Positions 3,629 to 6,013 of a stretch of DNA of 6,013 nucleotides are shown here, one piece after another. Source of the DNA: Chloroflexota bacterium (lineage in GTDB: Bacteria > Chloroflexota > Limnocylindria > Limnocylindrales > CSP1-4); contig JAJYDP010000324.1 in the NCBI GenBank assembly GCA_021777365.1, positions 1 to 6,013 of the forward strand, read 5' to 3'. How positions within the stretch are numbered: position 1 is the first letter of the stretch; every line of letters begins with the position of its first letter. Made by a program: the position numbers and the translations under genes. The notes beneath the pieces were generated by a model that was given only the letters and a program-made list of their open reading frames with translations, had not been told where the DNA came from and ran no database searches.

Positions 3629-3700
3629 TCGTGTCCGGGACTTTGCTGACCGCAACCGCCGACGGCGCAACAGCAGAGGGCACCACGCCCGGACCGACCG

Positions 3701-3780
3701 CCCCCGCTGGGTCGACCGTGCCCCCGCTGGGTCGACCGTGCCCCCGCTGGGTCGACCGTGCCCCCGCTGGGTCGACCGCG
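3701..3780. repeat. 20-bp tandem repeat, four copies
   Basis: Four head-to-tail units of CCCCCGCTGGGTCGACCGTG start at 3701, 3721, 3741 and 3761. The first three are identical and the last ends GCG instead of GTG. Each contains the palindrome GGTCGACC. The period of 20 rules out a coding repeat and the lack of spacers rules out CRISPR. The identity of the copies suggests recent expansion. Confidence 0.95.
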
Positions 3781-4204: not shown

Positions 4205-4450
4205 GTCGCACAGGCGTTCGAGGTGCTACGTTCCGTCGATCCCATCGCGGTAGACGAGCGCAAGGAGCCGCTGCCCGGCAATCTTGCAGTAGAAGCGACG
4301 GATCGGCCGACGCCACCACGCTTCCCCGACCCGCCAGCGGTTGCAGACCTCGACCTTCTCGCGGCGGCCGTTCCATGCGAAGGGGACGAGCCCGCCTTCG
4401 TTGTCAAGCTCGACGGCGATCGTCGGATGTTCCTCGAGCAGGCGCGGCAT
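4205..4450 (-). pseudogene. DUF6504-like protein, nonsense-mutated
   Basis: The frame from ATG 4450 reads 74 aa to TAG at 4226-4228. It shows VELDNEGG, then PFAWNGRREKVEVCNRWR, GEAWWRRPIRRFY and ALVYRDGIDGT, the pattern of the small DUF6504 proteins (F-W-G-R, V-N-RWR, WWRRP, YRD) encoded beside ImuB-type polymerases. Past the stop the same frame continues HLERLCD. The family usually reads W-x-LER-x-YD here, so TAG has most likely replaced a Trp TGG codon. The gene is therefore probably a recent pseudogene missing only its last residues. The family name rests on remembered pattern, not a search. The other pieces of the cassette lie just upstream on the same strand. Confidence 0.65.
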
Positions 4451-4492
4451 CGCGGCGCCTCGGGCTGCGGCATCGCGGCGCCTCGGGCTGCG
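4447..4492. repeat. 23-bp tandem duplication at DUF6504 start
   Basis: Two identical 23-bp units at 4447-4469 and 4470-4492, with a diverged trace near 4525 (CGGGCTGCGGCGCCTC). The array ends exactly on the start codon of the DUF6504 frame, so a GCGATGCCGC start-codon context is duplicated on the minus strand. It separates the DUF6504 piece from the ImuB piece and has shifted their frames relative to one another. Confidence 0.9.
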
Positions 4493-4563
4493 GCACTGTC
4501 AATCGGGGGGCTGGACCCGGGCTGCGGCGCCTCTGCCGACCGTACCGCCCCCGCCGGTGCCGC

Positions 4564-4731
4564 TCCCGGCGATGCCTCTGCCCAGTCGATGCGCTCCTCA
4601 GGCAGCCGCATCTCCGGGTCACGGACCGTCGCACGCAGCACGCGCCCTGTGCCGGACCGGAACACGAGATCGGCGAGCTGCCACTCGAGGCGCGCGACCC
4701 GGGCTGCCTGCGGCGCGATGGGTCCGAGCTG
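4564..4731 (-). pseudogene. C-terminal fragment of ImuB-type Y-family DNA polymerase
   Basis: The minus-strand frame reads QLGPIAPQAARVARLEWQ, then LADLVFRSGTGRVLRA, then VRDPEMRLPEERIDW. In ImuB-like (DinB-related, catalytically inactive) polymerases of high-GC bacteria a similar segment closes the protein: QLGLF-PQAARAARL-WQLA-L, FG--RI-R, DPE--LPE-R--W. The preceding roughly 400 residues (palm, fingers, little finger) are absent. The fragment starts 1 nt from the end of the ImuA' fragment in a different frame, so an internal deletion has joined the two. DUF6504 follows, in the gene order imuA'-imuB-DUF6504. Assignment rests on remembered family pattern. Confidence 0.55.
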
Positions 4732-4732
4732 G

Positions 4733-4858
4733 CGCCTCCGCGACGAGCCGGAGGGCGGGCGTGGTCTTGCCGCTCGACGCATCGCCACGGAGCGTCACCT
4801 GGACCTCGCGCACGAGCCCGCCGGGACCCAGGATGGCATCGAGCGCCGGGAAGCCCAT
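4733..4858 (-). pseudogene. RecA-like ImuA' fragment with Walker A
   Basis: The frame reads MGFPALDAILGPGGLVREVQ, then VTLRGDASSGKTTPALRLVAEA. GFPALDAIL-GGL-R is the RecA/RadA-type entry strand and GDASSGKTT is a P-loop, as in the RecA-like ImuA'/SulA-like protein of mutasome cassettes, which supports ImuB and DnaE2 translesion synthesis. Only about 42 residues remain. The N-terminus is lost at the junction with the TIR cassette, and the rest of the ATPase core is lost at the junction with the ImuB fragment. It is certainly non-functional. Confidence 0.6.
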
Positions 4859-4874
4859 GAGCCGGGAAGCCCAT
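4845..4874. repeat. 14-bp direct repeat at imuA'/TIR junction
   Basis: GCCGGGAAGCCCAT occurs at 4845-4858 and 4861-4874 (period 16). On the minus strand it encodes the MGFPA start of the ImuA' fragment twice. It lies exactly where RecA-like sequence ends and TIR coding sequence begins, so it marks a rearrangement breakpoint. Confidence 0.85.
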
Positions 4875-5204
4875 GGGGACGACACGACCGTCGGCGTGTT
4901 GGCGAAGCTGCCCGACTCCCCCTTCGAGGTATCCGATGTGTCCCTCAAGGAGGAGCAGCCACAGAAGGAGTGGGAGGAGAAGGCCAAGAAGGCCATCGGG
5001 CGCTGCGACGTCTTCGTCGTAATGCTTGGGCCAAAGACTCGCTCCGCCTCGGGCGTTCGGAAAGAAGTGAAGATGGCCAATGACCTGGCAAAGCGGAAGT
5101 TCCAGATCATCGGCTACAAGAACGGATCGGAGGACTGGGCGGTGCCGGATGGCGGCCGCACTTACGCCTGGAACTGGGACAACCTGAAGAAGCTGCTGGC
5201 GTAG
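4857..5204 (+). CDS. ThsB/MTH538-like TIR-like protein, 5'-truncated
   Basis: 115 aa from the ATG at 4857; GTG 4896 or TTG 4899 are alternatives, none with a convincing ribosome site. From residue 15 it reads LAKLPDSPFEVSDVSLKEEQ, then W39, CDVFVVMLGPKT (50-61), SGVRKEVKMA (65-74), FQIIGYK (82-88) and GRTYAWNWDNLKKLL. This is the pattern of the MTH538/DUF1863 TIR-like domain (Pfam PF08937) to which Thoeris ThsB belongs. The family's opening strand (a VFISF-type segment of about 20 residues) is missing: sequence upstream of about codon 10 is antisense ImuA'. Glu70 sits where TIR enzymes keep their active-site Glu. ThsB proteins make an NAD-derived signal on phage infection; that role is inferred here. 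A 2-nt gap links it to the next TIR gene. The truncation may make it a pseudogene. Confidence 0.75.
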   Translation: MSREAHGDDTTVGVLAKLPDSPFEVSDVSLKEEQPQKEWEEKAKKAIGRCDVFVVMLGPKTRSASGVRKEVKMANDLAKRKFQIIGYKNGSEDWAVPDGGRTYAWNWDNLKKLLA

Positions 5205-5206
5205 CC

Positions 5207-6013
5207 ATGATCCCGCGGCGGGTCGTTGTTCTGCATGATGGCAGCGACTCCTGGTCCCGCGAGATCGAGTCGGCCCTTCACGAGCGACTGCGAGCCGCGT
5301 CGTTCGATCCGAGGAGCGTCCGGTTCTCGGCCAGGCCCCCAACTAGCCTCGACGGGCTTCTGGCAGTAGTTCTCTTGGCCACGGCGGACGCAGCATCCAG
5401 CCGCCGGATCATCCGAGACCTTGATCGCGTCATCGGGGCCGACGTTGCCATCCTTCCGGTGATCCGTCGACCTGACTCGTTCTCGGATTCGGTGCTTCCG
5501 CCGAACCTCCGTAGGGTCCAAGGTCTGGTGTGGGATGAAGACAGCCATCGGGTAACTGAGTACGTGCTGGCTGCTCTCGGGCTAGCCGAGACCGACCGTC
5601 GCGTGTTCATCTCGTACGGGCGGCGGGACGCAGACCGGATAGCCCGGCAGCTCTGGGCAGCACTCAGCGAGAGAGGCTTTGACGTCTTCCTCGATCGATT
5701 CCGTATGCAGCCAGGCGAGGACTGGGAACGACAACTTGACGTGGAGCTCTCCGACAAGTCCTTCGTGCTGGTCGTGGAGAGCGACGCTGCGGCCGACTCC
5801 AGGTGGGTGCAGCATGAGGTCAGCTACGCGCTCAAGAACCATCTGGGCTTCGCCGTGCTGTCCCTGCCAGGAACGCGTCCGGAGCGACTAGTAGATCGTT
5901 CCGGACCAATCCTTACGCATCAAACGAGTCCGAGGTCGAACTTGTTCCAGCGGAACACGACGGGCGCGTCGTTGAACTCCGCGATGCCCTGGTGGATGCG
6001 GGCCTTCAGCTCG
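5207..6013 (+). CDS. TIR-domain protein with degenerate N-terminal TIR-like half (runs off edge)
   Basis: Open from ATG 5207 to the window end (269 codons, no stop). Residues 131-221 are a TIR domain: RRVFISYGRRDAD (131-143), a GFDVFLDRFRMQPGEDW segment (157-173), SFVLVVES (185-192), SRWVQHEV (198-205) and FAVLSLPG. Glu204 in W-V-Q-H-E aligns with the catalytic Glu of SARM1 (W-V-H-K-E), so NAD hydrolase or cyclase activity is plausible. Residues 1-125 (VVVLHDGSDSW, LLAVVLLATADAASSR, ADVAILPVIRRPDSF, LRRVQGLVWD) look like a second, degenerate TIR/Rossmann-like half without that Glu. The start follows the upstream stop by 2 nt, so coupling is likely. The native gene probably ends or is cut near residue 227, because codons after about 5890 lie over an IS630-type end read on the other strand. 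G+C is visibly lower than in the ABC genes. Confidence 0.8.
   Translation, partial: MIPRRVVVLHDGSDSWSREIESALHERLRAASFDPRSVRFSARPPTSLDGLLAVVLLATADAASSRRIIRDLDRVIGADVAILPVIRRPDSFSDSVLPPNLRRVQGLVWDEDSHRVTEYVLAALGLAETDRRVFISYGRRDADRIARQLWAALSERGFDVFLDRFRMQPGEDWERQLDVELSDKSFVLVVESDAAADSRWVQHEVSYALKNHLGFAVLSLPGTRPERLVDRSGPILTHQTSPRSNLFQRNTTGASLNSAMPWWMRAFSS
5892..6013 (-). mobile_element. End of an IS630-like insertion sequence
   Basis: The transposase tail on the minus strand implies that the element's transposase-3' end lies just left of 5920. IS630 elements insert at TA. Two TA dinucleotides in CTAGTAGATC (5889-5890, 5892-5893) are candidate target sites, so the left boundary is uncertain by tens of bases. 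The other end is outside the window. The insertion appears to sit in or at the 3' part of the TIR gene. Confidence 0.5.
5920..6013 (-). CDS. IS630-like transposase, C-terminal 30 aa
   Basis: The frame entering from the right edge reads ELKARIHQGIAEFND, then APVVFRWNKFDLGLV and TGA at 5920-5922. The I--FN--P--FRW-K ending is typical of IS630/Tc1-mariner-type DDE transposases. Only this tail is in the window, so catalytic residues cannot be checked. The coding sense is opposite to the TIR gene. Confidence 0.7.
   Translation of the reverse strand, partial: ELKARIHQGIAEFNDAPVVFRWNKFDLGLV

Follow-up and report, generated by a model that had tools for sequence, protein, structure and literature searches.

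A TIR-SLOG3 gene cluster with likeness to Thoeris, and its broken copy in a Chloroflexota contig

The window described here, the whole 6,013-nucleotide (nt) stretch of contig JAJYDP010000324.1 from a Chloroflexota bacterium, contains two truncated genes of the TIR family: a small ThsB-like gene (gene A) and, behind it, a larger one (gene B). The original prediction, made from the sequence itself, took them for a two-gene defence cassette related to Thoeris. Relatives redraw this unit. In them the stable partners are gene B and a downstream gene, absent from the window, that encodes a free-standing SLOG cluster 3 protein (SLOG3; Pfam family PF18180). That the window is a remnant, that B and SLOG3 form a near-constant pair and that several TIR genes, A among them, can stand upstream can be stated with near certainty. 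The cluster is probably an anti-virus alarm, and is best read as working like Thoeris without falling under its definition. Antiviral systems of the TIR-SLOG kind are known in outline; this cluster is little-studied.

Gene B and its SLOG3 partner

Proteins of the gene B family are mostly 360-400 amino acids (aa) long, with a full length of about 386 aa. Gene B matches the Pfam model TIR_2 at E 8.9e-20, and the TIR catalytic Glu is kept in all 44 B relatives; B thus combines the two marks of a TIR NADase, the TIR fold and a Glu in the WxxxE position. Foldseek with the B model returned nothing at E up to 1e-3. A second structural comparison recovered the TIR fold, the model aligning with solved TIR structures over about residues 129-274. 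The N-terminal domain is modelled confidently (predicted local distance difference test, pLDDT, about 90), and a weak second alignment to SARM1 (6.9 bits) hints that it may be a degenerate TIR half. The earlier description of B as a bipartite TIR protein is weakly supported by this alignment. The nearest relatives of the window B, P0122 and P0123, are 88-89% identical to it.

The gene that follows B in relatives encodes a protein of about 205 aa, and four of four SLOG3 proteins match PF18180 with 90.4 to 114 bits, where the Pfam cut-off is 25. A scan of genome contigs for B gave 16 loci, 14 with a B-type protein and two (L015, L016) with a TIR match only. These two were dropped before counting, as were L008, in which the DNA ends inside B, and L041/L058, in which the contig ends beside SLOG3; the locus rows also contain repeats (L026 is L004, L054 is L052). 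By profile search, SLOG3 follows B in 12 of the 13 assessable genome loci. The exception, L013, has a 263-aa open reading frame (ORF) in the SLOG3 position with no Pfam match, and a second B gene in L012 is followed by a 261-aa ORF unmatched by the SLOG3 profile, which makes the count 12 of 14 per B gene.

Plasmids give the same picture. The B search and the SLOG3 search match the same 29 records, with the genes side by side, both lists resting on queries from one Enterobacter cluster. A SLOG3 query taken from L002 matches 28 plasmid records; P0122 as a query matches 30, and all 20 among the matches listed are also in the SLOG3 list. In each of 14 annotated plasmid loci the two genes either share at most 13 nt or have at most 3 nt between them. 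Searching from the other side, PF18180 detects SLOG3 in 2 of 395 genomes of the phylum of L003 and in 6 of 296 of the phylum of L009 (Telluribacter). B stands beside SLOG3 in six of the seven loci so found that have enough contig, or in four of five without the two centre genomes, which had been found via B. The exception (L036/L057) has SLOG3 without B. There the SLOG3 gene (L057:4498-5118) adjoins what appears by eye to be a type I restriction methylase gene, which may show a decayed or different partner. A search for gene B in the 395 genomes of the phylum of L003 matched the centre genome and no other, with at most four candidates scored per genome among the matches listed, such that B may be under-counted.

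Of 5,426 E. coli genomes, four carry the pair, at three chromosomal places and on one plasmid. Two of the four are entries for the meat isolate AW1.7, which has a TIR-B-SLOG3 cluster. Clusters occur in Actinomycetota, Pseudomonadota, Bacteroidota, Verrucomicrobiota and Acidobacteriota, and on plasmids.

SLOG3 has 696 detectable relatives. In the best 120 of these, the Arg and Glu that align with R371 and E403 of BcThsA are kept in 120 of 120, the count including the reference sequence (as does that for gene A below), and the loop that carries K388 in BcThsA is absent from SLOG3. In the SLOG3 structural model, built on five sequences only, ThsA and LOG enzymes tie as nearest folds. Profile comparison finds no homology between SLOG3 and B (probability 0.3%). 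PADLOC places 27 of 27 members of A1 (the gene B set) and 19 of 21 members of A2 (the gene A set) under ThsB, and gives no label to the four SLOG3 proteins tested. Because of this labelling the cluster goes unseen as a unit.

Gene A and other small TIR genes

The gene A family consists of 125-aa ThsB-like proteins, with 767 relatives at E up to 1e-3; the family figures given here derive from the best 120 listed. Their start, VFVSFDFDND, is strongly conserved (Ser9 in 117 of 117 and Asp11, Asp13 and Asp15 in 116 of 117 of the best-listed relatives) and is missing in the window. The gene A fragment matches TIR_2 at E 6.7e-5, under the Pfam cut-off, and ThsB_TIR (PF08937) at E 2.2e-4 with 22 bits, above the cut-off of 21.2. 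PADLOC ThsB models match A at 1e-5 and B at 1e-24, and the Thoeris-related setting of the genes is borne out to that extent: the locus has ThsB-type TIR genes. Compared with solved structures, the A family profile matches EcThsB (8wcf, E 0.0032) and a B. cereus TIR protein (8fz9, E 0.009); the single protein P0001 matches solved relatives at chance level only.

How often A and B occur together depends on the side from which one looks. A lies directly upstream of B-SLOG3 in three other loci: L002, from an Acidimicrobiales metagenome-assembled genome (MAG), L003, from a gammaproteobacterial MAG, and L017, from the Sulfitobacter plasmid NZ_CP081125.1. In L004 the match to an A-like protein is confined to its second half. 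The adjacency expected of the two genes thus exists, but it is rare from the side of A, and by the standard set with the original prediction this largely refutes it from that side. A survey started from A comprises eight loci, namely three plasmid matches of at least 45% identity (of 40 records) and five genome matches at E up to 1e-30, centres excluded; it leaves out the other 37 plasmid records, whose A-like proteins are below 45% identity, and L033 and L034, which are weaker than 1e-30. These eight loci hold B in one case, a gene for a protein with two transmembrane segments (two-TM) in five and a caspase gene in two. The two-TM genes are of the PADLOC PDC-M50A kind, four of them adjacent to A and one about 1 kb off on the other strand; the caspase gene is adjacent in L019 and about 1.8 kb away in L018. 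Among the 14 B-holding genomes searched, two have a strong A match (E up to 1e-30) and two more a weaker one; 145 genomes of the phylum of L004 contain none at E 1e-30.

Within 2 kb of B-SLOG3, small TIR genes, either A or matches to a related profile, are present in 9 of the 13 genome loci and in 11 of the 15 plasmid loci fetched. Since searches started from A mostly give two-TM or caspase neighbours, with B a minority partner, gene A looks to be a sensor or signal-maker that other small TIR genes can replace. The idea of a module survives the rarity of A-B adjacency because B has a constant SLOG3 partner and varied small TIR genes nearby.

Two further arrangements of A were seen. In L033 a caspase-like gene is next to an A relative, and L018, L019 and L033 resemble TIR-caspase systems. 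In L059, L060, L062 and L063 A adjoins a two-TM gene of the PDC-M50A type, and L059 and L063 also have another small TIR gene; we know of no described function for this recurring small cassette of A and a two-TM gene. No relative was found on phage DNA in two viral-contig scans and a phage collection (gene A only), the scans using short patterns that give no proof of absence.

The window copy

The two TIR genes of the window both lie on the plus strand, 2 nt apart, as the original prediction had it, and no ThsA is found among the window proteins; in relatives SLOG3 occupies that place. The accompanying shift in composition is likewise real, the GC content dropping from about 0.72-0.73 to 0.62-0.64. 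This copy of the cluster is a broken remnant and cannot be intact (Table 1). Gene A lacks family residues 1-25, and its open frame extends upstream to 4341, a part without homology. Homology to the family does not set in before nt 4902, so the ATG at 4857 does not correspond to the family start, and the TIR fold lacks its first stretch. Gene B lacks residues 230-386, and the break falls inside the region that aligns with solved TIR structures. With fold elements absent from both A and B, the copy would be unable to work.

The break in B is made by an IS630-type insertion sequence, ahead of the position of SLOG3, so that the window contains neither the end of B nor the SLOG3 gene. The C-terminus of its transposase runs on the minus strand from 6013 down to a stop at 5922-5920 and is 82% identical over 28 aa to an IS630-type transposase. 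The flanks had been described as a broken repair operon and an insertion sequence. The latter is confirmed, and a RecA-like fragment is present on the other side, below the Pfam cut-off (E 4.2e-4, 20.3 bits, cut-off 27) and with a best tblastn match to plasmid recA genes of E 8e-3 among the matches listed; the rest of the supposed repair operon has no Pfam match. This includes a DUF6504-like reading of 4226-4465 on the minus strand, which was rejected.

Table 1. Positions of the TIR gene fragments and adjoining features in the window, and of patatin-SLOG2 genes in other loci
Feature	Position	Strand	Remarks
Gene A fragment (ThsB-like TIR)	4857..5204	+	Homology to the family starts at nt 4902, residue 26 of 125
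Gene B fragment	5207..5893	+	229 of 386 residues; homology stops at V229 (nt 5893)
Gene B N-terminal domain	about 5207-5581	+	
Gene B TIR domain, first part	from about 5594	+	Catalytic-type Glu is residue 204, about 5816-5818
IS630-type element end	5891..6013	-	Interrupts B; boundary at about 5889-5893
RecA-like fragment	4619..4864	-	Abuts broken start of gene A; Pfam RecA and tblastn
16-nt unit, 1.9 perfect copies	4845..4875	n/a	Join of RecA-like fragment and gene A
Patatin-SLOG2 proteins	L052:3439-5055; L044:1531-3147; L012:10912-12684 (minus strand)		

Neighbouring genes and possible effectors

A patatin domain fused to SLOG cluster 2 occurs near B in Enterobacteriaceae, in Cupriavidus and in Castellaniella (L012, about 4 kb from B-SLOG3). 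The E. coli copy matches Patatin at 1.1e-28 and LD_cluster2 at 1.2e-7. Four annotated copies, including those of E. coli and Cupriavidus, are named "CBASS cGAMP-activated phospholipase"; these proteins probably serve TIR systems, as effectors that nucleotides activate, and not CBASS. Two-TM genes lie at most 2 kb from B in four of the 13 genome loci; in one of these the gene is a 58-aa fragment. Among the 56 of 164 neighbour ORFs scanned, some match models for type I restriction, Druantia, argonaute and Hma, as would be seen in a defence island.

Possible mechanism and alternatives

An intact cluster would have the order A (small ThsB-like TIR), B (TIR, about 386 aa) and SLOG3 (about 205 aa). 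We tentatively favour, at a strength a little short of even, a Thoeris-like system in which ThsA is split and a TIR enzyme stands in place of SIR2. Protein A, or another small TIR protein, would detect infection and make an NAD-derived messenger. Free SLOG3 may bind this messenger in a ThsA-type pocket, as its fold and two invariant residues suggest, and would then switch on the TIR NADase of B, leading to NAD+ depletion and aborted infection. The two-TM protein or the patatin-SLOG2 fusion of some clusters could be further effectors. A broader proposal, to be held slightly more loosely, is that the cluster represents a separate type of TIR immunity, in which a free SLOG3 receptor lets one TIR protein activate the TIR NADase B by a diffusible NAD-derived signal, with small TIR sensors swapped and a patatin-SLOG2 or two-TM effector added in some clusters. 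If ThsA is indeed split, the result would be a small-molecule relay from TIR to TIR, with receptor and enzyme on separate proteins. The E. coli copies of the B-SLOG3 core make this idea directly testable.

Changes of R371, E403 and K388 in BcThsA raised NADase activity in plants (PMC10022894), and for that reason the residues of the SLOG pocket may have a restraining role in addition to an activating one.

The strongest competitor, itself rather unlikely, makes SLOG3 a LOG-like enzyme that cleaves or converts a TIR-made nucleotide, either as an off-switch or as a second step, with A and B both messenger-makers and the two-TM or patatin protein the effector where present. LOG enzymes have a catalytic Arg and Glu at the positions of the invariant Arg and Glu of SLOG3, and they tie with ThsA as its nearest folds. 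The two-TM and patatin-SLOG2 genes near B would suit this scheme. So would the prediction of Aravind's group (PMC9503650) that SLOG domains are sensors or cleavers of such nucleotides. Most of the loci examined, however, have no recognised two-TM or patatin gene near B-SLOG3 and would be left without an effector, and the tight coupling of B and SLOG3 fits a complex equally well.

That coupling can also be read in another way. B might be a toxic NADase that SLOG3, as its dedicated partner, inhibits or regulates, in the manner of a toxin-antitoxin or guarded pair, while the small TIR genes belong to separate systems of the same defence island. The back-to-back, near-constant arrangement of B and SLOG3 in variable surroundings is what such a pair would show, and A and other small TIR genes do occur without B. 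A plain inhibitor would nevertheless have no need of an invariant Arg and Glu in a nucleotide pocket, and SLOG3 is found without B at least once (L057). We regard this reading as improbable.

It is more improbable still that the window holds an ordinary Thoeris system whose ThsA lies out of view beyond the insertion sequence, with A and B as its ThsB proteins. The PADLOC labels of both genes agree with it, but the next gene in relatives is SLOG3 and not ThsA. No ThsA model appears among the 25 families listed, of 123, for the 56 scanned neighbour ORFs, a listing that could conceal matches weaker than about E 2e-44. In the plasmid loci fetched, nothing annotated near B goes by the name ThsA; Cupriavidus has one SIR2-family gene at a distance of about 3 kb from SLOG3. 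A chance union of unrelated genes in a decaying region rich in insertion sequences, to which the rearranged surroundings and the truncation of both genes might point, is hardly credible and is rejected by the recurring A-B order (L002, L003, L017); moreover, three A/B cluster pairs (P0006/P0124, P0047/P0125 and P0041/P0126, their B 52-55% identical to the window B) have an identical size of longest source sequence against 0.34 expected from jittered sizes, a jittered set reaching three at least once in 2,000 and equal size being no proof of the same contig.

Relation to known systems

The cluster shares with SIR2-SLOG Thoeris its ThsB-like TIR genes, and SLOG3 has the fold of ThsA and equivalents of two of the three residues that coordinate 3' cyclic ADP-ribose (3'cADPR). 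It differs in having SLOG as a stand-alone protein from a different Pfam family (PF18180), without SIR2 and paired with a TIR protein of about 386 aa. The defining effector of Thoeris, a ThsA of the SIR2-SLOG or TM-macro form, is not found in the window. Thoeris with a TM-macro ThsA likewise has TIR proteins that feed a nucleotide-binding effector (PMC11204291); here, in contrast, no macro domain is seen, and the predicted SLOG3 model has no membrane part.

TIR-caspase systems (type IV Thoeris) resemble the present case in that the A family lies near caspase-like proteases in L018 and L019, but there is no caspase match among the window proteins scanned. PDC-M50, a PADLOC candidate system of a two-TM protein and a ThsB-like TIR protein, resembles it in the A relatives beside M50A-type genes elsewhere and in the two-TM genes near B, whereas the two-TM profile finds none in the window. 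The SLOG cluster 3 family itself (PF18180) has the third gene of the relatives as a member, although that gene is absent from the window.

The 2015 account of nucleotide-centred conflict systems by Burroughs et al. may already describe SLOG-TIR neighbourhoods. Antiviral TIR-SLOG systems are mentioned as a known idea in PMC9503650. No paper on the TIR-SLOG3 cluster, or naming PF18180, was found in a literature search that lay mostly outside subscription journals and preprints.

Other features of the window

Away from the TIR genes, and unrelated to them, the minus strand carries an apparently intact pair of genes for an ABC-2 permease and a DrrA-like ATPase (751-1488 and 1613-2848). The window also has several GC-rich tandem arrays, partly in or beside genes: 8.1 copies of a 15-nt unit at 1500-1621, 4.0 copies of a 20-nt unit at 3700-3778, and 23-nt units at 215-284 (3.0 copies) and 4444-4495 (2.3 copies).
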